A stretch of DNA of 64,000 nt from Paramacrobiotus metropolitanus (taxonomy: Eukaryota; Tardigrada; Eutardigrada; Parachela; Macrobiotidae): positions 806,001-870,000 of the forward strand of contig NW_026570279.1 of assembly GCF_019649055.1 (NCBI RefSeq), read 5' to 3'. The notes below the pieces were generated by a model. The model was not told where the DNA came from, did not search any database, and saw only the letters and a program-made list of their open reading frames with translations. The position numbers were made by a program, and so were the translations under genes. Below, piece by piece: positions 20,078 to 49,673 of the stretch; position 1 is the first letter of the stretch, and every line of letters begins with the position of its first letter.

Positions 20078-20136
20078 CAAACTAAATGTTTTTTGAAATG
20101 TAGCTACGCTTGAAGACTTACGATGTTGAAATTCCA

Positions 20137-26853: not shown

Positions 26854-26858
26854 ATGTG

Positions 26859-27216
26859 TGTGAGACCGGGATCACTAGCGTTCACGTCAGTGGCGCTACG
26901 CCTGTGGCGCTACGCCTTCGGATTACGTGTCTGTGTTGTGTCTCTTCTGATTGGCTTGAGTTGTGTTAGTGGGCGCGGCACAGCACGTGCTGCACAGTGA
27001 TACACACTGTTGAATGGGCTCTACGCTTAACGATCGAGCTGCGCCGATCCGTGTTGATTTTCTGTTGTCGGAATTTTCAATATTATTAAACGTTAGCGAT
27101 TACGGTGCGACGTTTTGTGTTTCCGCATAGCTCGCGATCCAGATCGTATCGCTCGCTCCACAGGATAGATTCCGTTTCTGTCTCTGTCTCTGGATCCATT
27201 CTGGATCTTGCATTAG
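26859..27216 (+). repeat. 5' LTR of giant element copy A
   Basis: Begins TGTGAGACCGGGATC and ends ..GCATTAG(A). The last A could belong either to the LTR or to the target duplication. It contains a CACGTG E-box near 26989 and no clear TATA box. Confidence 0.92.
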
Positions 27217-27217
27217 A

Positions 27218-27231
27218 TGGTAGCAGAGCCG
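27218..27231 (+). promoter_or_regulatory. Primer-binding site, initiator tRNA-Met type
   Basis: TGGTAGCAGAGCCG directly follows the LTR. The first 11 bases are complementary to the ..CTCTGCTACCA 3' end of metazoan initiator tRNA-Met. The same site follows the LTR of copy B at 59795. Confidence 0.75.
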
Positions 27232-27392
27232 ACAGCGGTTCTCTGATTCGAATTGATTTGATTTGTGTCAGGCAAATTTGGCCTGTTATTCGCTGTGACC
27301 AGTAAGGCACAGGTCTGTACGGACAGCAAAGCGCACACCACAAGCGGTGCAATTTCCCCATCGGACGCGGATAACCAGCTTCGGTTTTCGGT

Positions 27393-27541
27393 ACGGTATC
27401 TTCAGCGAAGAACCGTGCTGTTTCCTTAGCTGTGAAAGAGTACAAGAGTTCAGTCGTCAGCGTTCCTCGGTGTAGAGTCTTCAGCGAAGACCTACACTGG
27501 TGTCGCTGATACTCGGCAAGGATTCAGCGAATCCTAAGCCG
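27393..27541 (+). other. Three consecutive leader hairpins with UUC-AGC-GAA apices
   Basis: Hairpin 1 (27393-27416) pairs ACGGT with ACCGT and TCTTC with GAAGA. Hairpin 2 (27470-27497) pairs GTGTAG with CTACAC and GTCTTC with GAAGAC. Hairpin 3 (27514-27541) pairs CGGC with GCCG and AGGATTC with GAATCCT. All share the TTC-AGC-GAA tip while the stems differ, and all three recur in copy B. Confidence 0.75.
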
Positions 27542-27829
27542 TGGGCCACAAGCGGCGAAGCGCTAAAAGGGGCGCACGGAAAAGACCAGATCAGACTCCT
27601 CCAAACTGGAGTAGAGCACCATTACTGTTGCTACGGCACAGCCGGCACAGTAACATACTGATAGCGCGGGGCACGCTACGGAACAGCGGCGACGCGGGAG
27701 CGGAGTTGGAAGAAGAATCTGGATCATTCGGATCATTTTTCCCGTGGAACGTGGAACGGACGGACGGTTAACAGGTAGAAAACCGTTATTAAATACGGGA
27801 TTGGCTAGACGTTAAAATTGGTAATTTTC

Positions 27830-28016
27830 ATTGGTCCGTACTGAGCTGAGCGTAGAAGTAGGCGGAGTTTTGCACGCGGCGCGCTTGTCTGGCCGTTGAC
27901 CGTGACGTCAGGCTGATATAAAATTTAAATGGTTTAACGTGATTGGTCAGTTATCTGAGCCGTGATTGGCCGAAATTTGAACTAAATATTTTGAGCTAGC
28001 GGACCAATCAGAACGA
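27830..28016 (+). promoter_or_regulatory. Putative internal promoter in the leader (CCAAT, CRE, TATA)
   Basis: About 600-800 bp after the LTR are CCAAT boxes in both orientations, a CRE (TGACGTCA at 27903-27910) and, 6 bp later, a TATA box (TATAAAA at 27917-27923). Copy B keeps the same CRE-TATA spacing at 60484-60504. The LTR itself lacks a clear TATA. Confidence 0.5.
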
Positions 28017-28096
28017 AGTAAACAACCAGAATGGGGATTTTCCGTTGAACTCGAGTCGTAATGGGAAATTTGATTTGAGATGAGATAATCGAGCGG

Positions 28097-28502
28097 GAAG
28101 TGACCTTTTGAGTTGAGTTGAGTTGGAAAGTGACCTTTAAGACTAGAACGTGACCTTTGACTTTGAAAAGTGACCTTTACTAAAAAGTTGGAATTGTCGA
28201 AATTGACCTATTCAAGTGACCTTTATGATCTGAAAGCGACAAACGGTGACCTTTATCGAAGTGAAATTGAAGTGAATAGTAGTACAGCGATATCAGCAGC
28301 TGTAGGATTTCATTTGTAAACGTGTTTTGAACTGTAAGAACGGTTTCGAAGTTTTGTCTGAGGAGTGACCTTTAGAGCAAATCTCTCGAACTTTTTACCG
28401 AAAAAGTGACCTTTAAACGGAACTTAGCCGAAGTTCTTCAATCGAAAAGTGACCTTTAGCAAGGATTTAGAAAAAATTTCTAAGTACAAAGTGACCTTTA
28501 GG
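28097..28502 (+). repeat. Leader array of ten TGACCTTT octamers
   Basis: Ten exact TGACCTTT sites, mostly GTGACCTTT, lie irregularly spaced in about 400 bp immediately before gag. The reverse complement is AAAGGTCA. The array is conserved in copy B (60680-61200). See findings. Confidence 0.92.
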
Positions 28503-28575
28503 ATATTTGAATAAAACCATACAATAACGTGTGTGTGAGAACAATTGGCAGGAGCGTCAAAGTTATCCGATCAAC

Positions 28576-31500
28576 ATGGACAAAGACAAAGAGGACCCGA
28601 CATCTACCAGCAGTCAGGGAAGCAAAAGCTCCCGTAGCTCACAGCAAGGCGCACCAAACCCGTATAAAAAGGATTTGCACACGTACTCACGTCCAGTTGG
28701 ACATGAGCGGAACACTCGAGCGCCTAAGGCATTCGAGAAGAAGGATTCGCGAGGCTCTGATAGCACTTATCAGAAGGCGCTCGAGGCGGTCGCCAACCAG
28801 GAAAGTTCCAGTGACGACCAGAAGCACACTCCCGCGTCTACGGCGGGAAGTGATCCGATGAACCAGACAAAGGTCACCGGGGAGGATAAGTCCACAGGAA
28901 GAATAGCGGAACTAGTTGGAGCATCACAGTCGGATGCTACCACTAGCGGAATGAATGAGCAGGATAAAAACGTGAACCTGACTCAAATGGAAGTTGATAA
29001 GACAAAGGTCGCCGAAGAGGAACTCGTTGAACTGGGTCTGGATGACCTTTCACTGAACGATAAGACCGCAGGCGATGACCTTTGGGGAACTCCAATGGTC
29101 TCTGACGAATCGAACGAGTCCTACTTCACGGATGATGAAGCGACGATGAACATGTCCTTCCAAACTGCGATGAAGGAAGCTGACCGCGCTGAAGGCATGA
29201 CACGATTCAAGGACATGCCAGAGCACCTCATTGAACGGACACAAACTGGAAAGGTCATCAATGTACGACCGCCGTCACCGAACAGCCGCACGTCAACTTT
29301 GAGGAGAAGTGTCAGCGAATTGGAAAATGAACTGGAAGTTAACGAACGTCAGGCGGACAAGCGGAAACAGGAATACCGAGAAAGACTGACGACACTTGAG
29401 AACCGCCTGTTTGATCTGGAGCAGCAACAGGATGACCTTCAAAGTGCCGCAGACGGTTGGAAAGTGAAATATGAAAGACAAAAGGAACTGGCCGAAGAGT
29501 ACCTGAAAATGGTTGATGACAGAGAAATGGAAGGTCATCTTGCAGTCAGTGACCTTAATGAGAGTTTGTCAGAAGAATCAGCTGAAAGGTCACGGCACTT
29601 GGCAGAATTGAAGGATGAATGTGGCTCATTGAAACTTAAGGTCACTGAAGCGGAAGCTAAGAGAGACGAATATGCGGCTAAACTCGTCGACGCTACGCAG
29701 CGACTGTTGACAAACACCAATGAAGTGTTTAAGCTCAGAAACGAATTGAAGCTACGAGACGAGAGTATCGGAACTCTTCAGAAAGAATCACAGGACCATC
29801 AGAGAAGAGCCGATGACGCCGTCAAAGTGGCTAAGGACCTGCGCGATCTAACAGCCACCGAACGCGCACGGTTGAGCAATGAAATCAGACAGGTCATGGA
29901 GGAGAATAAGGTGTTGAAAGAAAATATCGGAAAGGTCACCGAAGAGAATACCGAGCTGAAGGAAGCCGCTAAGACATCTGCCGAACAGGGCATGAGATGG
30001 GAACACGAAGCACACCTCTTGGACGTAAAGGTCACGGCACTTGAACTGAAAGATAAAGAGTGGCAACAGTCGGTTCATCAGAAGACACAAGAGATCATCA
30101 GACTCAACACGGAGCTGATCGATATGACCCAAACGGTAATGACAAGGGAAGATGAGGTCACCCAAACAAAGGACCAGCTGAAAGCGGCAGCCGATGAGTA
30201 TTCGAAACTGGAGAGAGACGTGACCCAGTTGGCGGAACACATTGCAAAAGTGGAGAAAGATACTGAAAAGGTCATCCAGGACAAAACGCTTCAATTACAT
30301 CAGCACATGTCGAAGGTCAACCAAGAGAACCAGAACTTGAAGAACGAGAAAGAACAATCCGACTTAAGGATTAAGCGTCTCGAAGATGAGAATAAAGCCC
30401 TTCAAATGTCCAACAAGCATAAAGATGAACAGCTCCTACAACATGGAGTTAGAGCAGCGACAGTGGAATCACCGCCGCCCAGTTACAGCAAGGCGCATGA
30501 AACGGGCACGGGCAAAAGCTTTCACTTTGACATGCCACTACGAACTGGCACTGGTAAAGGAAGCGTCAAAGCGGAAAGAGACGGTGAAAAGGGCAAAGAT
30601 GACAAAGAGCCACCATCAGGAGGTTACCCACATTCGAGCAATGCCGATCCTTCCCAGTTTCCCCCGCATATGGAAACGAACATCTTCATAGATGAAAGGC
30701 AAAGAGACAGACCGTCTAGCCGACAAGAGCGCCCAAGGAAATCACGTTATGGAAAAGCGAGACGAAACCAAAACGATGATGAAAATAGCGAAGAAGACGA
30801 TGACCAGAGAGCAGAAAACACAGCGGTGCAATTGACAAAAGCGCTCAACTCGATGGCTAGGAAAACACCACTCATGACCCTTGATGGCAGTCGTGACACT
30901 GTGAGTGGATGGACAGGACTGGTAAAAGAAACCCAAAGAACCTACCAGCTAACGGACGACCAAATTATGATCGAGATTGCTATTGCGGTGAAAGGTCCTG
31001 CCAAAACTTGGTTCGAAGGCGAAAAGGACATCGCAGCAGAAGACGGAATTGAACACTCAATAACTGAATGGATGGATAAATTCAAAGATGAATACGGCGA
31101 CAGAGACGAAGAAGTCTTAGGCTTACGTGAGGCCTATGCAAGGAAATTTGAACTCGGGAAGGAATCGCTTGACCAGTACTACCAGGCGATGATGCGCTTC
31201 AAGGCAAAAAAGATCATCACCGAAAAGCAAGCAGTCGGCTTCCTAATTGAAGGATGTAGAGTGGACAACGAACTCTACAAGGCACTGCGTATACAGAAGT
31301 GCAAGACGCCAACGGACGTGAAGGACTTCTTCCGACATTGGGCAACGGGCGAAGAAAAGTACAAGGCGCCGAAAGGCCAACGTAATCAGGAATACGTGAC
31401 CATCCGGCAAGGCCAAGTTGAAAATGTACCGCAACAGAGGATGGCGGCTGCACCAGTCCAACAGCCAGTAGAATGCCGTGTGGAGACTCCGGTCAGAGAG

Positions 31501-32208
31501 GTCACAGAAAAGGTGACCTTTATCGACAGTCAGACGGGTCAACCGATAACATACTCGATGGTGGCGGCGATACAGGCAGCAGCTCAAGTGAGGCCAGTAG
31601 CCCAGAATGTAGCTCCCCAGAATGTAGCCCCACCGGCACCACAGAATATGGCCCCTATGAACGTCGTGTTACCACAACAAGGAGGGGGTAACGGAAACTT
31701 CGGCGGAAATGGATACGGAAATGGAAACTGGAACGGAAGTCAAGGAAACTTTCAAAATCAAGGTCAAGGTCAAGGCAACTTCCAGCCAAACAGAGGAAAT
31801 CAAAATAACTTTCAGCAGAATCAAGGGTCACGAACAGAGTTCAAGTTCCAGATGATAGACGGATGGGTGGCAAACAATGTGCAGATGTGCCAGTACTGTA
31901 TGTATGGCAACCATCAGACCCAGGGATGCAAGTTCGCCAACACACTACCGGACCAGAACCCGAACCTGTTTGCCTTTAACGAGTGGCAACGACTGCGCGG
32001 GCTTGGCGGTTGGCGCCTAGCGGTGAATAACGGATATGACCTCATCACCCAATGGTACCAGCACAAAGCAAACTTCCGAAACCAACAAGGGAATGGAAAC
32101 GGCAACTATGGAAATGGAAATGGCGGTGGCCAGAATGGCGGCTACGGCCGTGGTGGCTTCGGCCGCGGCGGCTTCAGAGGAAGGAACAGAGGCTATGGCC
32201 GAAATTAG
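28576..32208 (+). CDS. Gag polyprotein of the giant element
   Basis: From the ATG at 28576 (MDKDKEDPTSTSSQ), which copy B shares, a 1,210-residue structural protein. Residues about 1-215 are Ser/Thr-rich and disordered. About 230-640 is a long heptad-rich coiled coil. About 780-930 is the retrotransposon-Gag helical domain (GSRDTVSGWTGLVKE, GPAKTWFEG, LREAYARKFELGKESLDQYYQ). About 1015-1100 is Gly/Asn/Gln-rich and prion-like. Then follow a CCHC knuckle CQYCMYGNHQTQGC and a Gly/Arg-rich tail. After the TAG at 32206 the same frame and composition continue for 57 codons to 32379, so the stop is probably recent or read through. The size is about three times a usual Ty3/gypsy Gag, mainly because of the coiled coil. 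Confidence 0.9.
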   Translation: MDKDKEDPTSTSSQGSKSSRSSQQGAPNPYKKDLHTYSRPVGHERNTRAPKAFEKKDSRGSDSTYQKALEAVANQESSSDDQKHTPASTAGSDPMNQTKVTGEDKSTGRIAELVGASQSDATTSGMNEQDKNVNLTQMEVDKTKVAEEELVELGLDDLSLNDKTAGDDLWGTPMVSDESNESYFTDDEATMNMSFQTAMKEADRAEGMTRFKDMPEHLIERTQTGKVINVRPPSPNSRTSTLRRSVSELENELEVNERQADKRKQEYRERLTTLENRLFDLEQQQDDLQSAADGWKVKYERQKELAEEYLKMVDDREMEGHLAVSDLNESLSEESAERSRHLAELKDECGSLKLKVTEAEAKRDEYAAKLVDATQRLLTNTNEVFKLRNELKLRDESIGTLQKESQDHQRRADDAVKVAKDLRDLTATERARLSNEIRQVMEENKVLKENIGKVTEENTELKEAAKTSAEQGMRWEHEAHLLDVKVTALELKDKEWQQSVHQKTQEIIRLNTELIDMTQTVMTREDEVTQTKDQLKAAADEYSKLERDVTQLAEHIAKVEKDTEKVIQDKTLQLHQHMSKVNQENQNLKNEKEQSDLRIKRLEDENKALQMSNKHKDEQLLQHGVRAATVESPPPSYSKAHETGTGKSFHFDMPLRTGTGKGSVKAERDGEKGKDDKEPPSGGYPHSSNADPSQFPPHMETNIFIDERQRDRPSSRQERPRKSRYGKARRNQNDDENSEEDDDQRAENTAVQLTKALNSMARKTPLMTLDGSRDTVSGWTGLVKETQRTYQLTDDQIMIEIAIAVKGPAKTWFEGEKDIAAEDGIEHSITEWMDKFKDEYGDRDEEVLGLREAYARKFELGKESLDQYYQAMMRFKAKKIITEKQAVGFLIEGCRVDNELYKALRIQKCKTPTDVKDFFRHWATGEEKYKAPKGQRNQEYVTIRQGQVENVPQQRMAAAPVQQPVECRVETPVREVTEKVTFIDSQTGQPITYSMVAAIQAAAQVRPVAQNVAPQNVAPPAPQNMAPMNVVLPQQGGGNGNFGGNGYGNGNWNGSQGNFQNQGQGQGNFQPNRGNQNNFQQNQGSRTEFKFQMIDGWVANNVQMCQYCMYGNHQTQGCKFANTLPDQNPNLFAFNEWQRLRGLGGWRLAVNNGYDLITQWYQHKANFRNQQGNGNGNYGNGNGGGQNGGYGRGGFGRGGFRGRNRGYGRN

Positions 32209-32379
32209 AGAGGCGGCGGAAATGGAGGCGGAAACTACCAACAGGGTGGTGGCCAGCAAAACGGAGGTGGCCCGGTAAACGAGCAAGTGCAAGGAAATGT
32301 GCAAGGAAATGCGCAAGGAAATGTGCAAGGCGCACAACAAGGAGGGGCGCCGGTTCAGGGAAACGGGCAAGATCAGTAG

Positions 32380-33215
32380 GCACCGGTGAGCCTACTGATC
32401 GACCCGACCCTAAACCACCGGATAAAAGGGAAAGGTCACCACTGCAGAATGGTACTGCAGTGAATGTGACCACTGCAACGGCTATACGGATGCCGTCAGC
32501 GCAAAAGGAAACGGCTAGATGGATGCCGCCACAGCAAAGAGAAACGGCTATATGGATGCCGTCATCACAAAAAGGAAATGGAACGGTTATAAGGATACCG
32601 TCACAGAATCAAAGGTCACCGCAGAATGGCACTGCGAGTTGAAACGTTCAAGTGGACCAAAGGTCACCGCAGAATGGCGCTGCGAGTGGAAGAGCGCAAC
32701 GGGACCAAAGGTCACCGCAGAATGGCACTGCGAGTGGAAGCGCGCAACGGGACCAAAGGTCACCGCAGAATGGTACTGCGAGTGGAAATTGTCGTGACGG
32801 TAGCGCGACACTGCAAAAAGTGCAGCAAAATGAAAGGTCACCGTACTGCAGCGAAGAAGTGCTAGCGCAACGACGCGCACAACGAAACGCGAAGATTAAA
32901 CAGACGCTCCTGAACCAAAAGAAATCGCAGAACGATACTGCGCAAGAGGAAAATGAGCAACATGCGAAATTCCGAAGGTATTTGGCAGAAAATGACAAAA
33001 CGAATGAGCCATGTTGCGACTGTCACGGGGAGATAAAGCCTAAGTTCTGGAATTGTTCCGAGGACGAGGAAGAGAAGCTAATAAGGCAAGAATGGATTAA
33101 GCAGAATATCACCGTTATTAGTAAAGATGAAAGGTCACCTTCTGTTGGAAAAGTTCAAGTGAAAGTCAAGGAACAAGTGCGAACGCTAAAGGTCACGGTA
33201 AAAATGCCGTGCTAA
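32380..33215 (+). CDS. Repeat-encoded charged protein, unknown
   Basis: A frame different from gag is open from before 32380 to 33215, broken only by TGA at 32640-32642. Its first half is four 48-bp direct repeats starting at 32614, 32662, 32710 and 32758 and encoding DQRSPQNGTASGSAQR-like units. Each repeat contains one AAAGGTCACC. The second half is charged, with cysteines in PCCDCHGEIKPKFWNC. I recognise no domain. In position it is where a protease would be expected, but no DTG or DSG motif is present. Confidence 0.45.
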
Positions 33216-33934
33216 AAGGTCAAGAAACAGACTTGACACTGCGAACAGCGCAGCAAAAGAATAGCGAACTGGCACAACAAAACTCCGACGACTCACTTGT
33301 GGATGCAGTAACGCTGCAACGGAAGGAAATCTGGCGAAAAGTGGCATACAGACCCAATGAAAATCACGGGATGTGGATACCCGTAACCCCGAAAGCGAAG
33401 CAGAAAGCGGGAATGTCACAAGAGGATTATTGGGACATGCAGGAGTTGCGAACACAACATGAGAGGAAACGATTAGAAGAGTTAGTTTTCGGGAAACCAG
33501 CACAAAGGTCATTGAACCCAGTCCCAGCATTTGATCCAGCTGAATATAAGAAGGCATTCGCCGACGCGAACTATCCACGAAATGCACCGCCAAAGGACAA
33601 ACCACTGAATTATGGAGAAAAAGTCCCCATACAAAAGTTGACGGGCGGCGGATTTGTCATGAAGCGCAACGAAAGGTCACAGGACTTAGCGCAAAACGAA
33701 CAAAGAGGAAGGTCAAACGAGATGGCGCAAACGCAACAGAGTAGCGCAGTCGAAAGGTCACGGGACTTATCACAAGCACTGCAAAAGTATTCCACTGCAG
33801 AGGCACTGGAAATAAAGACGGCTAAAGTGTGGAAGAATAAAAAGAGTGAAAGGTTACGGGTATTGAAACGAATAGCCAAAAAGGAACAGATGTTTACAAG
33901 TGAAATTCGTAACAAGGCGCTCGAACGGTTGTAA
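33209..33934 (+). CDS. Unknown charged protein upstream of pol
   Basis: Open frame of 241 codons, overlapping the previous frame end slightly. It has a compact central part (GMWIPVTPKAKQKAGMSQED, AFDPAEYKKAFADANYPRN) flanked by Gln/Arg-rich stretches in which NERSQDL and VERSRDL are spelled over AAAGGTCA sites. It has no recognised domain. It may be a segment of a larger Gag-Pol linker broken by frameshifts. Confidence 0.4.
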   Translation: MLKGQETDLTLRTAQQKNSELAQQNSDDSLVDAVTLQRKEIWRKVAYRPNENHGMWIPVTPKAKQKAGMSQEDYWDMQELRTQHERKRLEELVFGKPAQRSLNPVPAFDPAEYKKAFADANYPRNAPPKDKPLNYGEKVPIQKLTGGGFVMKRNERSQDLAQNEQRGRSNEMAQTQQSSAVERSRDLSQALQKYSTAEALEIKTAKVWKNKKSERLRVLKRIAKKEQMFTSEIRNKALERL

Positions 33935-33991
33935 GGTCACCGAACACAAAAAGAACCAGAGGTCATCGAAATATCCTCTGAGGGCAAAAGT

Positions 33992-34753
33992 GTGACTCCA
34001 ATTGAATGTGAGGAAGATACCACAGCACAGGAAAAGGTTAAACCGCAAGCGAGTCAACGGACATTAACCTCAGACGAACGAGCCAGGAGTTGTCACCACG
34101 GCTACTTTGAGGACCCGCGCAGAATACAACCACAATGGGAATGTGCAGAATGTTGCGAAAACGCCTCCCAAGATGACCTTTTACAATGGCCGAAATGTAA
34201 TGCCGCAATAGCAGACCTTAAAGGTCATGCCCAAAAGGAAGTAAAAAGTATCATGCGGACAAACGAAATGTGGAAGCCACACATTGAGCGGTATCACTGT
34301 AACAGATACCGGACTTGGTTGTCATGCGTGAAGAGCTTCATTATCGGGAGTGGAAGATGGCTAAATCATTGGTTACAACGTGTCGAGAAAGGAATCCAGG
34401 ATCCTCTTGATCCGGTAGCAACCGAAAGGAGATTCGAAAGAGAGATAGAAGAGATAAACGAGGAAGGAGAAATGTGGGAAGAAGCGAGAGTTGACCTCTT
34501 CTGGGACTTCCGTGTGAACCACATGTATAAAGGTGAAGGGAGAACGATCATCTTCCCGGCAGGACTTGGTACCCCTGTCTACGAATCACTCGAAGTATAT
34601 CACAACGCGTTAAAAGAGGGGAACGAAGAAGTATTCCAAAAATATTGGAATAAATTTGAAGAAGAGATCCCCAGATTCGACGTAAAAGAGATGCGAGAAT
34701 TACAAGTGACCCGGAAAAGAATGTTACCGGGATTAATGCAAAAAAAAAGGTGA
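33992..34753 (+). CDS. Unknown Cys-rich then helical protein upstream of pol
   Basis: Open frame of 253 residues. Near residues 35-70 a cysteine/histidine cluster (CHHGYFED, WECAECCENA, LLQWPKC) could bind zinc. The rest is ordinary folded-looking sequence (WLSCVKSFIIGSGRWLNHWL, GRTIIFPAGLGTPVYESLE). It overlaps the next frame by 4 bp (34750-34753). I do not recognise the family. Confidence 0.45.
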   Translation: MTPIECEEDTTAQEKVKPQASQRTLTSDERARSCHHGYFEDPRRIQPQWECAECCENASQDDLLQWPKCNAAIADLKGHAQKEVKSIMRTNEMWKPHIERYHCNRYRTWLSCVKSFIIGSGRWLNHWLQRVEKGIQDPLDPVATERRFEREIEEINEEGEMWEEARVDLFWDFRVNHMYKGEGRTIIFPAGLGTPVYESLEVYHNALKEGNEEVFQKYWNKFEEEIPRFDVKEMRELQVTRKRMLPGLMQKKR

Positions 34754-35373: not shown

Positions 35374-35591
35374 AAAGCGAAAAAACTTAGTGATTCGCGG
35401 TAAACCAAAGTGACCTTTCATCAGAAGATGAAGGAGTTGATGAGCGCCCACTCGAAAAAGCTGACAAAGGTCAAGCTACTGCACAGGGATGTGAGAGCAG
35501 TAACTCGGACTCTGAGTGGACGAGTTCAAGTGACAACTCAACACTTTCGGAAGATTCAGGTGTAAGTGATCTTTCAGAACAAGAAGATTTA

Positions 35592-39388: not shown

Positions 39389-39437
39389 CTCAGTCACACA
39401 ACAGAAGCCATTTTTCGAACCACCTCTGCTACCCAAA

Positions 39438-39839: not shown

Positions 39840-40030
39840 CCTGAGGACGCAGCCGAGCAAGACCTTCTTGATCGGATAACTAAAGGACGCGAAAACAAAT
39901 AACTCAGATAAATATGATTAAGGGGATTTATGGCAATAAGAATAGGAGATGAGAAGGTGTAAAAGAAAGGTCATCACCGCGCAAAAGTTAATCAAAATTG
40001 TTTCATTGTTACAGAAGGTAAGCTCAGTTA

Positions 40031-41065: not shown

Positions 41066-41075
41066 ACAGTGGCCG

Positions 41076-43640
41076 GTGACTGTTGAAATGATCCTTAGAT
41101 ATCTCAAAGTGTTCCCGGAAACAAGACAGATGCCGACTACCAGCGTCGCGGGACTATCTGAACCCATAGCTGAAAAAGACGCCCCGGTCGATGAAATGAC
41201 GGACGAGGACCTTTTGGCAACGAAGAGGAAGATCGATGCCGAATTAACTGAACGAGCAGAAAGGTCACGGGCCAGCTCGACCGCAGGATCAGTACGTGGA
41301 CGTACTAGTTCGGTTACAGAACCGTCCTGCGGGACCACAAAGAGTGGAAAAAGAGTAAGGTCACCGACGATAAGCTCAAAAGAAACTGGCAAAAAGGAGC
41401 AACGTACTAAAAAGGTCACGACGACTAAAGCACCGCCGGCTAAGCCACAAGGCCCAGTCCCAGTGGGTAGACAGAGTGTGCCACCCACGCCGGCTGGAAC
41501 AGAAGGTCAGATTCGATTCCCGAAGTGTAGAAGTTTTACGGCCAAATACACTGGGACAGACCATAAAGAACGAAAGGTCACGGCGCGTATAGTCGATAAG
41601 AAAACGAATAAAGAGATCGACTCGTATAATCCGTTCGCGGATAGGTCAGTTAAGGATGCCATTGGGGAAGAGTCAAAAACGGTAGTCAACGAGGCGTTAC
41701 AGTTTGTTCCCCCAGAAGAACGTCATAATCCAAGAGTTCTCATTCAGATGATGAAGCACTTGGTATCTAAAGTTGCGACCGAAGAAGATGCATGGATCCG
41801 TATCAAAGTGGGCACAAATGACGACCACTTGGCATATACATACACCGTGGACGGCAAATTGTTGACCAAAGAGAGGACCCGCTCAAAGCCGTCGGCAGAT
41901 CCAGACCCAAAGAAACGGTCGTTAGATGATTATGAGTCGATCCTGAGATATACAGATGCGACAAGTAGAAAGGTCACCCTCAGACTTTTCGCTGGTAACG
42001 GAGAAGTTGTGGAAACCATAACTGCAGTGATAGTTGACCCAATAACAGGAGACCCGATTCCATATGCTCCTTGGGGTGTATCAGAAGAGAGTGCCCAAAA
42101 TGCGAATCAGGCAGCCATTGAGCAGTTATGGAACCTGATACCTGAAAGTGACCGGGAAGATCCGGTAGTCCAAACGAGCACATTGATCAGCATGATGAGG
42201 CATCGAGCGGAGATCGACGAGGCGCATTTCCGACTCACAAGACGAATGGAAAACGGATCGTACAAAACGGTGTTCTACGACGTTAAAAAAAACCCCGTAT
42301 GGGAGGTCGTCTCACCGGGACAGACGAAAGAAACACCACACTTGGAAATTCAGGATGAACAGCCCCCGGCACAAGAAGGCGGAGCCGGAGAAATGGAAGA
42401 GGCCCCAGTCGCAGAAGTTGAAGAAACTGGGGGCACCAGACGATCATCGAAGCAGGATGAGTCGGAAGATGAAGAAGACGACGAGGATTCGCCAGACGAA
42501 TCAGCCGAGGAAGATCAAGAAATGGTTGCTAGGCGTAAAAAGCCCTCAAAAGAAGTCAAACCGAGAAAAGCGCCTAAATTGGAAGAAGCCATGAACCGTG
42601 AGAATCCTAAGAAAGGCGATTTCCTAAAGAAACGAAGGGAAGCAGAAGAGAAAAAGAAAAAGAGTGGTGATGAAAGCGAGGACACAGCAACCAAGAAAAA
42701 GAAGACGGAGAACACGAAGAAGGAAAAACCGCCGTCTCACGATGTCGAAATACTGGACGAATCAGTCGGCGAAGTTGAGGAAAGGTCATCGACACCTACG
42801 ACTTCAAAGAAAGTTATCCAATCGGCTACATCAAAATCAAAGGTCACTGAGCCTGAGTCGCCAAAAACCAAAGGAAAGGTCATAGCAGTGAAACAAGCTG
42901 TCCCCATTGTCATTTCTGCATCCACGCCAAAAGAGCGCAAGGACAAACAAATTCGTGAGAAAGCGAAACGGGAGACGTCGCGTGAATCGGAGGCATCGGA
43001 AGTAAGTCTACCGAGCACTTCGACAGTCAGTACGAGGTCATATACGGATCCAAAGACAACCCGGTCAAGGACCACAGAACCAAGAAGCCTAGCGGAGGTT
43101 TTGGATAAAGGGAAAAAAGCAAAGAGCGAACCCGTAAAGTCCAAAAAGAAAGGGAAGGAGGCCATGAAAATCGACGCACTGGCGATGGCCACTTATACCG
43201 AACCAGACGGTGACAGTGAACTCGATTTCTCGGGGGACGAAATGGAATTCGATGACCCGGACAATGATAATATGACCACGGTCGACGAAATCGTCGATGC
43301 GTTCGATGGAGCCGAAAAAGAATTTGCGCGGATAAGAACAGCGCCAGTGACAAGAAAATTTAGAGCGGGTCTCAAGAAATACCTAAAAGAGAAACGCCGC
43401 AGCTTCACCAAACAGAAATTCGATGTGGTATTGGAGTATGCGCGGAATGCGGGAAAACTCATTCAGAAACACCCGAACTTTGCATACAAGGCCAAGCTGT
43501 TCAGACCGACAAGTTCAGACAAGGCGTTGACGACTCCGAACGAAGATATCCCAATGCGAGTGGAAAGGGCAATCTCGGGAATGACAAGCCCGTTGGGATC
43601 AACGAGTCACCGGATTAGCCAGTATATCAATGCAGTTTGA
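41076..43640 (+). CDS. Accessory ORF 2: large protein with a duplicated about 110-residue domain and a long charged region
   Basis: Open frame of 854 codons. Two related modules follow each other. The first (about 160-265) has KVTARIVDKKTNKEIDSYNP, then VNEALQFVPPEERHNP and LIQMMKHLVSKV. The second (about 300-410) has ETITAVIVDPITGDPIPYAP, then IEQLWNLIPESDRED and LISMMRHRAEI. Between residues about 420 and 720 it is Glu/Lys/Ser-rich and disordered, with NLS-like clusters. The last about 120 residues look helical (VTRKFRAGLKKYLKEKRRSF, VVLEYARNAGKLIQKHPNF). There is no signal peptide or transmembrane segment. A nuclear or particle-associated role is possible but unproven. Confidence 0.65.
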   Translation: MTVEMILRYLKVFPETRQMPTTSVAGLSEPIAEKDAPVDEMTDEDLLATKRKIDAELTERAERSRASSTAGSVRGRTSSVTEPSCGTTKSGKRVRSPTISSKETGKKEQRTKKVTTTKAPPAKPQGPVPVGRQSVPPTPAGTEGQIRFPKCRSFTAKYTGTDHKERKVTARIVDKKTNKEIDSYNPFADRSVKDAIGEESKTVVNEALQFVPPEERHNPRVLIQMMKHLVSKVATEEDAWIRIKVGTNDDHLAYTYTVDGKLLTKERTRSKPSADPDPKKRSLDDYESILRYTDATSRKVTLRLFAGNGEVVETITAVIVDPITGDPIPYAPWGVSEESAQNANQAAIEQLWNLIPESDREDPVVQTSTLISMMRHRAEIDEAHFRLTRRMENGSYKTVFYDVKKNPVWEVVSPGQTKETPHLEIQDEQPPAQEGGAGEMEEAPVAEVEETGGTRRSSKQDESEDEEDDEDSPDESAEEDQEMVARRKKPSKEVKPRKAPKLEEAMNRENPKKGDFLKKRREAEEKKKKSGDESEDTATKKKKTENTKKEKPPSHDVEILDESVGEVEERSSTPTTSKKVIQSATSKSKVTEPESPKTKGKVIAVKQAVPIVISASTPKERKDKQIREKAKRETSRESEASEVSLPSTSTVSTRSYTDPKTTRSRTTEPRSLAEVLDKGKKAKSEPVKSKKKGKEAMKIDALAMATYTEPDGDSELDFSGDEMEFDDPDNDNMTTVDEIVDAFDGAEKEFARIRTAPVTRKFRAGLKKYLKEKRRSFTKQKFDVVLEYARNAGKLIQKHPNFAYKAKLFRPTSSDKALTTPNEDIPMRVERAISGMTSPLGSTSHRISQYINAV

Positions 43641-43655
43641 AACGATGGGAGAGGA

Positions 43656-44943
43656 ATGATAAAGGAAATCGATACGGCCACTGAGCGTGTTTTGCCACGG
43701 ATGATTAGGCAGAACGTCCTTTCGACAACGAATGCGAACAAAGGACAGCCTATCAGATATACAAGAGTGGGTCTGATACCACCGGAAAGACAGATCCACT
43801 GTCATATGTCTGACAGTCAAGATACGGAAAAGGTCACAGTCCCACTGAGTGGAGATCCATCAACTCCGATATTGAATCAGATCGCACAGAAAATGGCTGA
43901 AGAAGAAGCAGCTCGGCTTAAATCGCAGGCCCCGAAAGTGCCGAGCACCAGGGGGCCGATGGATGACGAAGCGGAGGAAAGCGATGACGATACTACGACA
44001 CCGGCGCTCCCCGAGTCTGTGACAGAAAAAAACGACCAGTCAAGATCAAGAGACATCTGGAACTGTCGCAGAAGTTCAACCGAAAGGTCACGAGACTTCA
44101 GACAAACGGGAGAAAGAAAAGGTCATGCTCCCGATGGACAAGGCAGCGGCAGAAGCAGAAGTGGTCTCCGCGCGACAAGTGTTTCAGAAATCATTGTTCA
44201 CACCATTAAAGGAAGTCTTTGAGAAGGAGCGGTCGAAGTCGGCTGGCGATGTGGGAGGTCAAGAGACTTTGCCGCAAGAAGAAAAGAAGACAGCAGAACC
44301 AAAATCGGCGGGGTCATCATCAGGATCATTGGCAAAGCTGAGGATTGACAAAACAGCGACAGCTGATCCAACGGACTCGGCATCCTCCCAGAAGAGTAGC
44401 GGTACGCCAGTAAAGGAGGCTACGGATTATACGTTAGGACCAGCATTGGACGTGAATAATCGTACATGGAACGAAGTCCAGGCCGCGCTCCAAATCATTC
44501 GAGAAAAAGAAATGCTTGGTACGGATCTGAAAAGACAAGTTGCAATAAATTCGAACGGAAGGTCGTCACTTAACATGACTGAACGAGCCCTGAAACGAGC
44601 ATACAAGGAAGGAAAGTTGGGATGTAAATACAGCAAGGACAACAAAGTCGTCTACTACCTTCCGAAACAGGGTCAGGAACGACCGCCCAGACTGAAAATG
44701 GAACTAGAGGCCTGGAAGATAGCCATCACAGACGTGGTTTTGGACGCCATCGGCGGTACCAACGGAGCGTCATGGAATGACCTTTTGAACTTCATGGCCG
44801 TCCATTATGAATAGGGAGAGCTGAACGTTGAAAACGAAAAAGAGTGGATTAAGGATGCCGTCGAAGCCTTGATCGCAGACGAAGTACTTCATATTAATCC
44901 AGATGGACGAGTCGACTTCAAACCGTATAAACCACCGGCGAAG
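43656..44943 (+). pseudogene. Accessory ORF 3: disordered region then winged-helix-like domain, one frame change and one TAG
   Basis: Frame 43656-44222 encodes an acidic, disordered stretch. Frame 44125-44814 continues and becomes folded: NRTWNEVQAALQIIREKEML, NMTERALKRAYKEGKLGCKY, DNKVVYYLP, then WKIAITDVVLDAIGGTNGAS and WNDLLNFMAVHYE. After a TAG at 44812 the same frame goes on for about 42 codons (ELNVENEKEWIKDAVEALIA, VLHINPDGRVDF). The helix-helix-strand-wing pattern appears twice and suggests tandem winged helices, by eye only. The TAG interrupts the second one, so it is probably a recent nonsense change. Confidence 0.45.
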
Positions 44944-45308
44944 GAATCTGAGTGAACGGGACGGGTGTAATATGCAGCGAGTAATGAACCCTGCATATTA
45001 CAGAAAAAGCATAAAACAGTACAAAACGAAAGAGAAAGTGTTACGGGAATGGGAAAGTGAAAAGTTTAACTTGAACAGCGATTAGACTAATAGAAAAGGT
45101 CACAGTAGTCAGAAAGTGCTGATAACGTGAGAAAGGTCACCACGTTACAGTGATAGAAAAAGCAACAGGAGCTAGGAAAGTCTCAGCTCAGTAACGGAAT
45201 AGGCGTAAAAATGATAGAAAAGCCTTAATATGAATAAGAACGGAGAAGAGTGACAACAAAAAGGTTACTTTGATGGATTGCTTTATAATTGCAGATTGAA
45301 GCGGAAAA

Positions 45309-46296
45309 ATGGAAAAGAAAGGTCAAGCCGTTTCTAAACGTTCAGAACAGCGGCAGACATTGATCGGTCTACGGGCTATAACCCAAAGTGTCCGGACTGT
45401 TTACGGAATGACAAAAAGGTTGATAAGAAATTCCCGCGCTACGCATGCATTCACAAGCTGGAGGACCCACATATTGTTTCACTCGTTGGGGTCTCGGAGG
45501 CCAAACGTGGGAACCTGGACGTCTTCCGCAACCTGATAAGCGCAAGGAATTACGGCAGCATCCCAGTGGAAGAGCGAATGCTGCTTGAGGATCGCTACCG
45601 GGAAGCGATCCAGAATAACGAAAGCGGTTGGGATGAGACTTTGAACCGTTGAAATGCCCACAAACGGATGCATACCGAAAGAAGATCGAAGAAGATCAAG
45701 AGAAGATGCGATTTCAGCAAATGGAAGATGAAATCCGCGCGAAAATTAATGCGGAAAACAAAAGAGCGAGCGAACAGGCTGCACGGGAAGCGATACCCAG
45801 TTCTTCTAATCCAGCCGTACCTACAGCTAGCCTACACGAAGACGAAATGCAACTCGTACGACAGTCGCTCATCATTCAGATCGACACGCTGATAAGCGAT
45901 CCGGCCGCCATGCAACAGGACTTATTCGACGCGCTGTTGCGGGAAAAGCTGAGACTGCAGAAGGGTTTCGCGCCAGCACCATACATAAAGAAGGAAGTCG
46001 AAAGACGTATGGATGAAAAACGTAAATCTCGCCAAACTGAAAGTGACGTGCTCCAGGCGCTCAGAAGTTTAAACGGGACGAAGGTTTTATTCGACCTCGA
46101 TCACCTCCGCATAGAGAAAGGTCACGCGGACATTCACGTGAACATGAACGGACATCTGAACGACGGAGTGAAAGGTCACGTGAACACTCTCGTGAAAGGA
46201 CACGTGACTACCCCAGTGAAGATCCAACACGCGAACGTTCTCGCGACCGAGACTACCGTGGCGGAAGAGGATGGGTGCGCCATGGAAACGAAATAA
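45309..46296 (+). pseudogene. Accessory ORF 4: zinc-like Cys cluster then helical protein, frame change near 45655
   Basis: The first part, read from about 45367, is GYNPKCPDCLRNDKKVDKKF and PRYACIHKLEDPH, a C-x2-C..C-x-H cluster that could bind zinc. ARNYGSIPVEERMLLEDRY follows. The frame then changes and continues as KCPQTDAYRKKIEEDQEKM, helical to about residue 160. It ends in repeats HVNMNGHLNDGVKGHVNTLV spelled over GTGAAAGGTCACGTG sites. No family is recognised. Confidence 0.45.
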
Positions 46297-47883
46297 CAGA
46301 AATGTGTATTCAGAGGAAAATCGATACGGCAAAGATTTTGGCAGCGACGAGAGAACGCGAAGAGAAACGGCGTGCGGAGACGTTCCGTACAGAGCCTGAA
46401 AAGCAAGGGCATCAGGTGCCGATGGGAGTTGCATTCCGGAATCGTAATGTTAGAATGTCAACACCTGAAAGGTCATGGGATAAAAGACGCGAACATACGC
46501 GAAACCGAACGCCAGACCCACATGATAAGAGATGGCAAGAACGAACCAAGTACTACGCGGGTTTTGAATCTGGCGCAAGCAAAAGGTCATCAAGCGCAGA
46601 GCGGGAAGATTCACCCCCGAAATATCAGCGAATGGAGTCAACAGTCCATGTGGTGGATCCAATTGTAAGCGCCGTTCAAGAAGACGACTTGATGGAAGGG
46701 ACCAACTCGATTGCGGAAGCGTCTCAAGAAAACGTAACCCATCGACGAAATGTGATTCTTGATAGCGACCTTCAACCGGCTACACCGGCGAGTAATGAAA
46801 CGTCGCAGCCTGAGTCAGGAGAGCGACGTGAACTAGAAGGTCAACGTGAACCGGATAATCGTCGCCAGGCTGATCAGCGACTGAACTGCAAAAGAACTAC
46901 GCAAAAGAAATTAAAGAGGGAGTGGAACAAGGAATTTTTCGTCGGTTATTCATCCACCGCGATTCGGCACGGGACTGTTATCTCCCTATCAGACGGAATG
47001 GGTTACACAGTTTGGTGGATTTGAGCCTATCGGATGTGCCACTGGATACAATGGACCCAATCGGGATGACCCGATTTTATTATCGCGACTACCCGGAACG
47101 ACAAGAATACGTAGCCCAGTTTGTTTTACGATATGTGAATCCGGCTTTCAAGTTGCTAGCAGCAAGAGCATCGATCGGATTACAGGTGGATCCGAAAGAC
47201 TATGCCGCAAAAAGGATGGGGCAAAAGGTCTTTGCTGCACGACTGGCACATTACAAGACACAGAACCAGTTGCTATCAAATACGATGAGAGACGATATCC
47301 CACCATTTTTCCGATCTCATGTCGCCAAACTGGGAGAACCGATGGAACACCTCAGCATAGCTCATACTGCTCGGAAGGCGCTAAAGAAGTGCAAGACACG
47401 GATGGAAAAGGGCAACTTGACACAGCGCCATGCCTCCCAAGTTGAAGAAAGGATTAATAAGATCAAAGATTCCCTGTGAAGTGACTACGTCGAACCAGTG
47501 GACGGGGTGGAAACGTATATTGACGAATTCTTGGTGAAGAAAAGTGATCGGCGCCCGGAACGTGCTCCCAACCAGATAGGACGACGTGGCCTGCGGAATC
47601 AGCGCCTACGAGATAATCTCGCTGAAGTACAACGGCGACTGGCGGATGACCCTAATAACCGAAGACTGCGGTTAGAGGAGAACGACGCACGCCATCAAGT
47701 TGAGGCGGTTAAGCGAAGTCGTCAAGGAAAAGGTCGTGGCCAGCGCGAAGTTGACCCGTCAAAGGCCATGGAAGTCGACCCCATGGAACCAGTTGACCGA
47801 ACATCTGACCGTAATCAACCTGAAAGTGCTAAGAAGCGCCCGCCCAGAGATGGCGAGGGCGATTCAAATGAAATGGAATAGTG
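46275..47883 (+). pseudogene. Accessory ORF 5: Arg-rich region then helical domain, frame changes
   Basis: Frame 46275-47024 is Arg/Glu-rich (AATREREEKRRAETFRTEPE). Frame 46922-47479 carries a folded part (MTRFYYRDYPERQEYVAQF, LRYVNPAFKLLAARASIGLQ, HTARKALKKCKTRMEKGNL). After a TGA at 47477 the same frame continues to 47883 with an Arg-rich coil (RRGLRNQRLRDNLAEVQRR) and ends in a DP/ME-rich tail. I recognise no domain. It is the last coding stretch before the 3' non-coding repeats. Confidence 0.45.
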
Positions 47884-48049
47884 CCGATCGTTAGGATCCC
47901 ACTATTAAAAGGACGCCTACGGCATTTGTCGGTACGTCACAAAGATGAAAATGGTGTTGTATAAAGGGCGTGACATGTGACATATTAACATTAACTGTAT
48001 TCGTGTATTTGTTGTTTGCAGCGTTTATAGCACAGAATTGCCTAAAGAA

Positions 48050-48520
48050 ATCATGTGGAATATCTATTGGGGTTGAAATTGATTCGGTCTATAAAGCCGG
48101 CCCCAAGGGAGTAGTTACGGCAGTTAGCCGGCTCTCCTCCTTAAGCGATTCAGTGTTATAAATTGACAAATGAAACTACGGTAATCAAGCCGGATCTCTT
48201 GAATACGAAACGGGGCCACAAGCGGCGAAAAAGAGAAAAACAACAGGTGGAATATTGATGAGGTTAACTTAATGCGGCAACCAGCCGGCCTCATTAGAGT
48301 TGTTACGGTAAACTGTGCCGGCACTCTTTTTCAGCGATTCAGTGTTAAAATTAAAACGAGAAAAACTACGGTAACCAAGCCGGATTTCTTGTAATAACGT
48401 AAGCCACAAGCGGCGAACAAGAGTAAAAGATCAAATGTGGAAATTTCATGGGGTAAACTCAATGCGGTAACTAGCCGGCCCCATCAGAGATGCTACGGTA
48501 AACTCGCCGGCACTCTGGCC
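48050..48520 (+). repeat. About 175-bp tandem repeat, two to three units, in the 3' non-coding region
   Basis: Units share TCTATAAAGCCGG/ACTTAATGCGG-type starts, then AGCCGGC, GCGATTCAGTGTTA, ACTACGGTAA-CAAGCCGGAT and GCCACAAGCGGCGAA. The last motif also occurs in the 5' leader at 27546. No coding function is evident from 47884 to 49315. Confidence 0.7.
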
Positions 48521-48629
48521 GCCCGAGGCATGTTGAAGTTGGATGTGCGACGGAAAGATCAAATCAAGTCTTTACCAGGGAGGCAAGGAAAGAAGTGCTT
48601 GAAAGCCGCAGAAAATTGGCTAAGTACCT

Positions 48630-49045
48630 CCATGACCTTTAATGGAAGTTTGAACAGAAGAGGGATGACCTTTGAGATCATCAATTGCCCAACAGAGTCA
48701 CCGTAATGGAATTCAAGTCGCATGACCTTTGGGACCATTAACCCAAAATGAGTCGCACATCTCAACGGATCATCTCAACAAAGGATGACCTTTACCAGGG
48801 AGGCAGCGAACTACGCTTGTCTACATGACGTCCCTCCATGACCTTTATGGATCTCATTTTGAAGTCGTACAATTGATACGCACCTTTTTCCAAAGACTGA
48901 AGCAGTATTCTTAAGTCGTACTTGATACGCACCTGATTCTCAAGCGGATTGTGATGAAAAGTCGCATTATGGATGCGCAGGATTGCTCAACAGAGCGGAA
49001 TGGGCCAATGTGCGGAAGACGGTGGACAGGACCTGTGACCTTTAC
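48630..49045 (+). repeat. 3' cluster of six TGACCTTT octamers
   Basis: Exact TGACCTTT occurs six times between 48633 and 49043 in non-coding DNA. Orientation is the same as in the 5' leader, whereas inside the reading frames the reverse complement is commoner. Confidence 0.85.
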
Positions 49046-49315
49046 GAGTCAGAAATGGAGGATCCTAGTCTACATTTTGATTAATACTTTTGTTGATCTG
49101 TTTAACTGTTGATCTGTTTTATGATAGTATTTTTATAATTGGATCTCTTTATTCACATCGTATTAAACGGAATTGTGCCTTATGGAATTGATGTGATAAA
49201 ATGGATTAAGAGAATTTGATGTTTTTGAGCACGCACAGACACTGGCGACCGTCGTCTTCTCGTGGATTCGGGAGTGTGTCCAGCCTCACAGGAGCTCGGC
49301 ATCCCCCCAGAGGCA

Positions 49316-49673
49316 TGTGAGACCGGGATCACTAGCGTTCACGTCAGTGGCGCTACGCCTGTGGCGCTACGCCTTCGGATTACGTGTCTGTGTTGTGTCT
49401 CTTCTGATTGGCTTGAGTTGTGTTAGTGGGCGCGGCATAGCACGTGCTGCACAGTGATACACACTGTTGAATGGGCTCTACGCTTTACGATCGAGCTGCG
49501 CCGATCAGTGTTGATTTTCTGTTGTCAGAATTTTCAATATTATTAAACGTTAGCGATTACGGTGCGACGTTTTGTGTTTCCGCATAGCTCGCGATCCAGA
49601 TCGTATCGCTCGCTCCACAGGATAGATTCCGTTTCTGTCTCTGTCTCTGGATCCATTCTGGATCTAGCATTAG
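49316..49673 (+). repeat. 3' LTR of giant element copy A
   Basis: Same length as the 5' LTR, with five differences by eye. It is followed by ATGTG (49674-49678), the partner of 26854-26858. I see no convincing polypurine tract just upstream. Confidence 0.92.

Follow-up and report, generated by a model that had tools for sequence, protein, structure and literature searches.

The gypsy element of Drosophila carries an insulator array of about a dozen Su(Hw) sites in one leader block, and in the transposons with factor-binding arrays that are known to us, these arrays lie in non-coding blocks. NBRE sites are found singly or as a few copies at host genes, and bacterial DNA uptake sequences and Chi are short exact words that occur across coding DNA in several frames and on both strands. 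In Arabidopsis, an 8-9 bp motif has accumulated densely in one family of the VANDAL transposons (the VANC/VANDAL system, named also for the anti-silencing VANC proteins), where it forms same-orientation arrays in non-coding parts, and a related family has another motif (PMC5735166).

The DNA analyzed here, a 64-kb stretch from the tardigrade Paramacrobiotus metropolitanus (the window), contains a Ty3/gypsy-type LTR retrotransposon of 22.8 kb at positions 26859-49674. Its internal part is dense in the octamer AAAGGTCA or, in the opposite orientation, TGACCTTT, a word identical to the NR4A response element NBRE. The element resembles gypsy in its class and in having a cluster of factor sites in the leader, but the sites of gypsy are confined to that one block, whereas those of the window element run over the coding body. 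It shares the octamer itself with NBRE sites, although here the octamer forms a dense array within an element and the receptor is putative, and its likeness to uptake sequences and Chi is statistical only, as those belong to bacterial chromosomes and other machinery. With VANDAL it has in common a short dense motif, same-orientation non-coding arrays, and another word in a relative; however, VANDALs are DNA transposons with a mainly non-coding motif, whereas this is an LTR retrotransposon with most of its octamers in ORFs and a putative binder (PMC5735166). No title on this element or motif was found in the literature searched, the scope of which excluded most subscription journals and all preprints.

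Structure of the element and distribution of the octamer

The assignment to Ty3/gypsy follows from the domain order RT, RNase H, integrase and from a gypsy-class RT, as judged by Pfam and solved relatives, the two best of which are the RT/RNase H 4ol8 (E 1.8e-42) and Ty3 Gag-Pol 7q5b (E 1.7e-41), together with LTRs, a short target duplication, and a primer-binding site. The LTRs (26859-27217, 359 bp, and 49316-49674, both on the forward strand, as are the primer-binding site, the genes, and the leader and 3' arrays below) are 98.6% identical, with 5 mismatches in 361 aligned positions, and are flanked by a directly read 4-bp target-site duplication, TGTG, at 26855-26858 and 49675-49678, the exact edge of which is ambiguous because the LTR also starts with TGTG. 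Directly after the 5' LTR lies TGGTAGCAGAGC (27218-27229), read directly and presumably a primer-binding site of the initiator-Met type.

A leader array of ten TGACCTTT in a single orientation (28101-28499) precedes a gag-like ORF with nine octamers (28528-32208, stop to stop, ATG at 28576), in which a coiled-coil-like N-terminal part and a CX2CX4HX4C knuckle were recognized by eye and a Pfam search returned no match. The N-terminal extension of pol (32040-35903) carries octamers all along and is split among several frames in the window copy; frames around RT that stay open for as much as 3,124 aa occur elsewhere in the family. It is followed by reverse transcriptase (35904-37133; RVT_1, E 6.6e-25), RNase H (37097-38233; RT_RNaseH, E 1.6e-30), and integrase (38234-39388; Integrase_H2C2, E 1.3e-8; rve, E 2.3e-11). 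Downstream are the ORF3 region (40022-44814), for which several of the other copies have frames of ~1,640 aa, the ORF4 region with overlapping frames (45637-47479), and a 3' array of six TGACCTTT, again in a single orientation (48633-49043). Pfam searches gave no match for the ORF4 region, nor, as regards a possible envelope gene, for any of the nine ORF pieces 3' of integrase.

Exact octamers numbered 102 in the window, compared to a mean of 3.05 and a maximum of 7 in dinucleotide shuffles (n = 100). The internal part (22,098 bp) accounts for 76, located between 28101 and 49043 and compared to 6.7 expected from an order-3 Markov model, and the octamer is its top-ranking 8-mer. Neither LTR contains one, and the remaining 36,618 bp of the window contain four, at 2332, 5873, 21675, and 59149. 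The spacing is approximately one octamer per 300 bases within and outside genes (gaps of mean 279, median 168, and at most 2,051 bp), and all 11 of the 2-kb bins are occupied. These counts bear out the first-pass annotation, made from the letters of the sequence, in its report of ten sites in the leader and six at the 3' end, of dense sites between them, and of about four outside the elements. The pattern also extends beyond the interval 26859-49673 given there, as a second forward-strand copy, truncated where the window stops (59435-64000), has 22 octamers in 4.6 kb.

The word is sharp, each one-base neighbor occurring 0-7 times against 76 exact matches, and, as expected of an NBRE, AAGGTCA is preceded by A rather than C (76 AAAGGTCA against 3 CAAGGTCA in the element). 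The base that follows the octamer, +9, was C in 111, T in 39, A in 27, and G in 1 of 178 cases from three copies. The leader contains short tandem repeats, one 48-bp coding tandem repeat holds four octamers, and three minisatellite loci also contain the octamer.

The octamer in coding DNA

In 19 stop-to-stop ORFs, we counted 52 AAAGGTCA and 9 TGACCTTT, some of them twice where ORFs overlap, whereas 300 synonymous-codon shuffles gave 5.8 and 0.44 (maxima 11 and 3) and codon-order shuffles of the same ORFs 0.96 and 0.14. These counts lie far above those of sequences encoding the same protein, with approximately 9-fold enrichment for AAAGGTCA and 20-fold for TGACCTTT, in each frame open to them. 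Ten motif-bearing copies displayed a similar pattern, with 22-42 AAAGGTCA against 2.0-5.3 expected and 7-12 TGACCTTT against 0.12-0.47. The UTRs contain only TGACCTTT (10 and 6), and the ORF regions contain mainly AAAGGTCA (32 and 19, versus 8 and 1 TGACCTTT). All three reading frames are used, in agreement with the first-pass annotation, which had also explained the flip of orientation in coding parts as avoidance of a TGA stop. Frame 0, in which TGACCTTT would make TGA, is indeed empty in the ORFs of the window copy and of the motif-bearing copies, but most of the flip is expected from codon usage, the shuffles giving a ratio of ~13:1 and the element 5.8:1.

Comparison of copies provided further evidence. 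Where the encoded peptide is identical, octamers were unchanged in 14 of 15 cases from copy L048 to L039, which belong to two lineages (remaining 8-mers, 338 of 1699; p 2.4e-9 by Fisher's test), in 14 of 14 from L051 to L037 (418 of 1675), and in 14 of 16 from L039 to L048 (342 of 1716). Without the peptide filter, the values were 13 of 17 against 7.3% (L048 to L039) and 12 of 23 against 7.2% (L039 to L048). Two lineages with ~60% aligned identity have kept their octamer density, at 48-51 and 51-55 per 10 kb, respectively. The retention of octamers far above other 8-mers in peptide-identical stretches, together with the shuffles, strongly supports selection on the nucleotide sequence and not on the encoded protein, as had been supposed from the use of the frames. 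Computation shows that the array exists, that its letters are selected as DNA, and that either orientation and every frame open to it are used. What sets the element apart from the arrays known to us is the selection of an 8-bp word through ~20 kb of a mostly coding retroelement, overriding codon choice.

Lineages and a second word

The array is common to two diverged lineages, both dense in octamers. A third lineage, with an RT 89% identical to that of the window copy and a gag-pol layout shared with the octamer-bearing copies, has 0-7 octamers per 10 kb in five copies and is enriched, in genes and leader, for a different, degenerate word, AG[ACT]T[CG][AG], the shape of which was fixed after inspecting copies L042 and L044. 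The ORFs of two third-lineage copies contain 184 and 162 such sites against 103 and 94, and chosen leader stretches of five copies contain 23-46 against 4.1-7.3 expected, each count exceeding the maximum of 300 simulations. A mild excess is also present in lineages S95 (80 versus 63) and S83 (73 versus 58). Markov, neighbor-sharpness, and gapped-word counts revealed no other sharp octamer in the third lineage, and only the degenerate search yielded a word.

Retention of this word between third-lineage copies has moderate support, with 70 of 149 sites kept for L042-L043, 70 of 167 for L044-L046, and 81 of 134 for L043-L044, all exceeding the median for like patterns (0.36-0.39); the AGNTSR form ranks 40 of 909, 115 of 911, and 1 of 823, respectively. 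Where octamers could be aligned, their fifth base had changed from G to A in 10 of 21 cases in L044 and 9 of 18 in L042, compared to a generic G-to-A of 17.7%. In L043 and L046 this change is weak (6 of 19 and 5 of 20) and is exceeded by change at position 4 (8 of 19 and 11 of 20).

The order of the lineages is one of pairwise identity only: in a 300-aa comparison of RT, all three lie at nearly the same distance from one another (S83 to S95 mostly 88-90%, S83 to S89 87-88%), and in gag-pol the third lineage is nearer the window copy than is the octamer-sharing lineage. No gag-pol stretch tracks the word, 3 of 110 bins being flagged, all isolated. A neighboring lineage in the same genome seems to use another word, offering a natural experiment on how mobile elements keep and exchange the proteins they need.

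Candidate binding factors

We consider it reasonably probable that the internal 22 kb is a distributed array of putative binding sites for a sequence-specific protein that binds double-stranded DNA, a form of recognition favored over an RNA motif because both orientations are enriched, and the factor is probably an activator or anti-silencer. Such a protein would bind octamers along the element body, copies holding more of it would propagate better, and the most likely benefit would be that the bound factor keeps the body transcribed or outside silent chromatin. The octamer is best fitted by a host NR4A-type receptor, and the other-word lineage by an element-coded factor with drifting specificity. 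A rather doubtful extension is a family-wide self-recognition code, in which the word along the whole length, coding DNA included, would serve a factor by which 'self' is marked and silencing relieved, with lineages switching word, partly at the same positions, as specificity drifts; if true, LTR elements of animals would have an equivalent of the VANC system of plants, one that reaches into coding DNA as well. The octamer is also a specific bait for its putative protein, in an animal group with little-studied transposon control.

It is very improbable that the counts reflect compositional bias, protein repeats, or the spread of simple sequence: the tandem repeats of the leader and the 48-bp coding repeat would fit, but codon-preserving shuffles, the use of frames, peptide-controlled conservation, and a sister lineage near-free of octamers despite the same gag-pol layout all argue against it. 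A function in RNA had been raised earlier in the form of packaging or export, and could also lie in UTR copies of TGACCTTT pairing at long range with ORF copies of AAAGGTCA, which the division of orientations between these regions would permit. We regard a role in RNA as quite unlikely, given that TGACCTTT is enriched within ORFs as AAAGGTCA is, that the dominance of AAAGGTCA there is predicted by codon usage, that wobble-pairing A-to-G variants are also rare (7, 3, 2, and 2 against 76), and that the degenerate word of the third lineage would self-pair unreliably. The spread over the whole length and both strands resembles uptake sequences or Chi more than an enhancer, and the sites could accordingly serve a DNA step of the life cycle, be it the binding of Gag or integrase to cDNA or recombination among copies, and have no part in transcription or silencing; this too is unlikely, since gag-pol is more alike between motif-sharing lineages only in the few isolated bins mentioned above.

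Turning to the identity of the factor, the first-pass annotation named a nuclear receptor, and the host NR4A (Hr38/NGFI-B) receptor is a tentative possibility, the element then being an extended series of NBREs through which it exploits an activator of the host, one that may respond to stress. The word is an exact NBRE; genome-wide, AAAGGTCAC has 19,414 matches against 3,461 for the reversed control, an excess traced in part, whereas CAAGGTCAC, one base off and presumably an SF-1/ERR-type site, has none (1,895 against 1,871). The genome also encodes a candidate NR4A-like receptor, predicted from three exon-like matches at C45:296815-298439 that are 83, 76, and 67% identical to the NR4A1 DNA-binding domain over residues 3-31, 24-72, and 59-90 (six best other matches, 53-60%), and a copy without room for ORF3 still carries the array. 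Plausible as this makes a receptor, sites spread over coding DNA and a lineage nearer the window copy in gag-pol that is enriched for AG[ACT]T[CG][AG], which to our knowledge matches no receptor half-site, speak against a simple story of a conserved receptor.

Possible, but doubtful, is an element-coded DNA-binding protein, perhaps ORF3, that recognizes the array and counters silencing in a VANC-like manner, words and protein co-evolving to give the differences between lineages. The word differs by lineage while density stays high, the change at position 5 in L044 and L042 is partly in register, and the ORF3 end evolves fast (in 17 pairs of matches, paired by position, among the matches listed, identity to the window copy is 85-89% for RT but 35-49% for ORF3). 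In two S83-type copies, C206 and C73, an ORF3 match of 30 and 32% identity, respectively, follows ~8.55 kb downstream. These were, however, the only 2 of 20 S83-type RT matches (RT 95-100%) with an ORF3 match among the matches listed (145 of 275 candidates scored). Nor does ORF3 change together with the word: S83 has the octamer, yet the ORF3 of S83-type copies is the most diverged. In the one S83 copy whose 3' end was read, there is too little space for ORF3, so that this copy would have to borrow the protein, and L043 and L046 depart from the position-5 pattern.

Some further observations are counterpoints to an array of binding sites. Ordinary enhancers need no sites over 20 kb of coding DNA, and the shared orientation of the leader (10 of 10) and 3' (6 of 6) arrays, of which local duplication could be the cause, is not required by a strand-blind binder. 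Likewise, neither ORF3, the best element-coded candidate, nor any gag-pol stretch follows the word. The model of ORF3 from a relative has a mean pLDDT of 39.4, and its use was limited to the succession of helices and strands; it tentatively suggests two helix-helix-helix-strand-strand units, possibly winged helices, in the C-terminal part. A Linker_histone match to the ORF3 region (E 0.12) fails the cut-off, and a PDB profile match to Arc repressor was also observed (E 0.042).

The element family and its octamer array

An LTR retrotransposon of 22.8 kb occupies window positions 26859-49674. Its LTRs are 359 bp each (5 mismatches in 361 aligned positions), and reading the sequence placed TGTG at both outer edges and, directly after the 5' LTR, a primer-binding-site-like TGGTAGCAGAGC of the initiator-Met type. 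The element contains a gag-like ORF, and the order of its RT, RNase H, and integrase is that of Ty3/gypsy elements; the best solved relatives are 4ol8 (RT/RNase H) and 7q5b (Ty3 Gag-Pol). The host is the tardigrade Paramacrobiotus metropolitanus: a predicted P. metropolitanus protein, LOC129590918, is 91% identical to part (30%) of the RT ORF, and for two further ORFs all nine matches with names were from P. metropolitanus. The family is common in the genome, with at least 102 RT matches for the window RT (102 scored of 1,598 candidates) and at least 131 for an RT query from another lineage (131 scored of 1,410 candidates). The pol region of the window copy is interrupted; elsewhere, among the matches listed, open frames around RT reach 3,124 aa. 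Strand asymmetry is also strong at window positions 28001-48000, where the sense strand is A-rich (AT skew of +0.22 to +0.40 in 2-kb bins).

The octamer AAAGGTCA, counted with its reverse complement TGACCTTT, forms an array in this element. There were 102 matches in the 64-kb window compared to 3 in shuffles, with 76 in the internal 22,098 bp of the window copy, none in the LTRs, and 4 in the other 36,618 bp. One-base neighbours of AAAGGTCA occurred only 0-7 times each in the window copy compared to the 76 exact matches. The following base (+9) was C in 46, T in 22, A in 8, and G in 0 cases (C 111, T 39, A 27, and G 1 in three pooled copies, n=178), with little preference on the opposite side. 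Genome-wide, AAAGGTCAC occurred 19,414 times versus 3,461 for its reversed-letter control, whereas CAAGGTCAC, one base off, displayed no excess (1,895 versus 1,871). The 131 listed RT-bearing copies, at 46 each, would supply only about 6,000 of the roughly 16,000 excess occurrences, so the rest must be explained by copies that are truncated or unlisted, by other sequences, or by an inadequate control. A minisatellite with GTGACCTTTGTGACCTTT was observed at three loci, on contigs C22, C326, and C428, packing 12, 20, and 11 octamers into 3 kb, and BLAST of these loci against the available retroelement pieces detected no similarity. A partly inverted satellite with a 51-bp period lies between both retroelement copies at window 53582-54643.

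Selection on the octamer at the nucleotide level

The first-pass annotation had noticed the octamer in all three frames and proposed that selection or amplification acts on nucleic acid rather than protein; the frame use holds, and codon-preserving shuffles yield far fewer octamers. In the window copy ORFs, which overlap so that some sites are counted twice, AAAGGTCA occurred 52 times compared to 5.8 in 300 synonymous-codon shuffles (maximum 11), and TGACCTTT 9 times compared to 0.44 (maximum 3); the excess involves both strands. We then examined the 5' 10-kb stretches of 15 further copies, chosen, not randomly drawn, from the 102 listed, five for each of three groups that differ in how similar their RT is to that of the window copy: S95 (95-96%), S89 (89%), and S83 (83%), copies within a group being close kin rather than independent. 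The lineages differ: octamers per 10 kb numbered 48-51 in S95, 51-55 in S83, and 7, 0, 6, 5, and 0 in the S89 copies L042-L046. The ten motif-bearing S95 and S83 copies, with 60 codon shuffles each, agreed with the window copy: AAAGGTCA occurred 22-42 times (2.0-5.3 expected) and used all three frames, while TGACCTTT occurred 7-12 times (0.12-0.47 expected) and used the two frames that create no TGA. In overlapping 3' frames of one S83 copy (L052, 154-585), the octamer would encode repeated KGH and ERS peptides, so that protein sequence there may be influenced by the DNA word.

Approximately 40% of aligned bases differ between S95 and S83. Among octamers with alignable flanks, 13 of 17 from L048 (S95) were intact in L039 (S83), compared to 7.3% of other 8-mers, and in the reverse direction 12 of 23, compared to 7.2%, indicating that single sites also turn over. 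When the comparison was restricted to windows with identical encoded peptide, 14/15 octamers were unchanged from L048 to L039 versus 338/1,699 other 8-mers (Fisher p 2.4e-9). The same test gave 14/14 versus 418/1,675 from L051 to L037, 14/16 versus 342/1,716 from L039 to L048, and 26/28 and 25/26 versus 3,041/5,654 and 3,413/5,401 for two close S95 pairs. Against S89 copies there was no conservation, either at identical peptide (0/5 and 2/4 octamers unchanged) or without this filter (0-2 of 20-22 intact versus 9.4-9.6% of other 8-mers).

A probable degenerate word in the S89 lineage

S89 elements share the gag-pol layout of motif-bearing elements and, over most of gag-pol, are nearer to S95 than S83 is. 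An exact replacement octamer was looked for in S89 copies and none was found. A degenerate-word search controlled by codon shuffles returned AGNTSR-like words (z ~15, L042 and L044 pooled); the word shape was chosen from these two copies, and L043 and the leaders provide the fairer tests. In ORFs, AG[ACT]T[CG][AG] occurred 184 times versus 103 in L042 and 162 versus 94 in L043, with a mild excess in one S95 copy (80 versus 63) and one S83 copy (73 versus 58). Among 2,304 patterns of the same shape, AGNTSR ranked 1 in both L042 and L043, 6 and 3 in S95 and S83 copies, where AGGTCA accounts for most of it, and 1,585 in ORFs totalling 5.8 kb on the window minus strand at 7.0-20.3 kb, a mobile-element-like block rather than a host-gene control. 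In the five S89 leaders, as delimited by us, the word occurred 33, 44, 23, 33, and 46 times compared to 5.5, 6.3, 4.1, 7.3, and 7.3 expected from a first-order model, exceeding in all five the maximum of 300 simulations (13, 16, 11, 16, and 16). Counts in the leaders of the window copy (11 versus 4.1, largest simulated 15) and second copy (17 versus 5.3, largest simulated 12) imply that the word is present in S95 leaders too.

The degenerate core was in register at 4-6 of 18-21 S95 octamer positions in S89 copies compared to 0.7-1.0% of other windows, a background that is too lenient because a single transition turns AGGTCA into AGATCA. A sounder comparison is octamer position 5, which had changed from G to A at 10/21 sites in L044 and 9/18 in L042 versus 17.7% generically, more weakly in L043 (6/19) and L046 (5/20), where position 4 changes more (8/19 and 11/20). 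This pattern is suggestive of in-place switching of the word. Retention of the degenerate word between S89 copies was moderately high, and it is likely, but not certain, that this lineage uses another word.

The block at window 7381-20176, minus strand, resembles a Maverick/Polinton or large-DNA-virus insertion with IAP and TBP. Three of its ORFs match type-B DNA polymerase and one matches rve integrase; another has a RING domain and, below threshold, a BIR match (IAP-like), and a further, divergent ORF is similar to TATA-binding protein.

Candidate factors and the molecule that is read

We somewhat favor a model in which a DNA-binding protein would occupy the octamer array, which would serve transcription or anti-silencing. 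Two candidates nearly fill the probability of this model. One, put forward tentatively, is a host NR4A-type receptor: the NBRE, the NR4A response element, is AAAGGTCA, and an NR4A1 domain query matched three collinear stretches at C45:296815-298439 (83, 76, and 67% identity) that span both fingers plus the residues that follow, above the six best other matches (53-60%). The other, about as tentative, is an element-coded protein, possibly ORF3, the long ORF 3' of integrase. Among the matches listed, ORF3 frames of about 1,640 aa are open in several other copies; a low-confidence model of a relative predicts helix-helix-helix-strand-strand twice in the C-terminal part, and a linker-histone profile match was sub-threshold (E 0.12). 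However, the divergence of ORF3 does not parallel the word. Pairing RT matches with downstream ORF3 matches by position gave 17 pairs, in which identity to the window copy was 85-89% for RT and 35-49% for the ORF3 end; in the S83-type copies on C206 and C73, the ORF3 match lay about 8.55 kb downstream of RT with 30 and 32% identity. At least 2 of 20 S83-type RT matches (95-100% to L039) had an ORF3 match, with none for the other 18 among the matches listed (145 of 275 candidates scored). The one S83 copy whose 3' end was examined (L052, on C9) has 15 octamers in 1.8 kb and an alignable 3' UTR but no room for a 1,640-aa ORF3, implying that the octamer can do without ORF3 in cis; S83 copies without ORF3 could borrow the protein from elsewhere.

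It is unlikely that the octamers instead serve a DNA step of the element life cycle, and a function in RNA is more improbable still. A word read in single-stranded RNA should show enrichment in sense orientation only, yet inside ORFs both orientations exceed expectation, TGACCTTT by the larger factor, arguing for reading as double-stranded DNA; the ratio of AAAGGTCA to TGACCTTT in ORFs was 5.8:1 versus about 13:1 from shuffles, i.e., no surplus beyond prediction. Counting against the double-stranded DNA reading, all 10 leader sites and all 6 3'-UTR sites are TGACCTTT. Short tandem repeats in the leader may be a partial cause of the one-orientation leader sites. Same-orientation arrays are reported in PMC5735166 for the motif of VANC21, one of the anti-silencing proteins of plant VANDAL transposons, and in this the leader and 3'-UTR octamers are alike.

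Seven S83-type RT stretches (C1:2168648, C1:2489080, C3:1427920, C9:941606, C41:687232, C206:4982, and C508:11002) are identical over 300 aa, which suggests a recent S83 burst. Given the diverged downstream ORF3 match on C206 and the absence of room for ORF3 on C9, this burst may include both longer and shorter elements.
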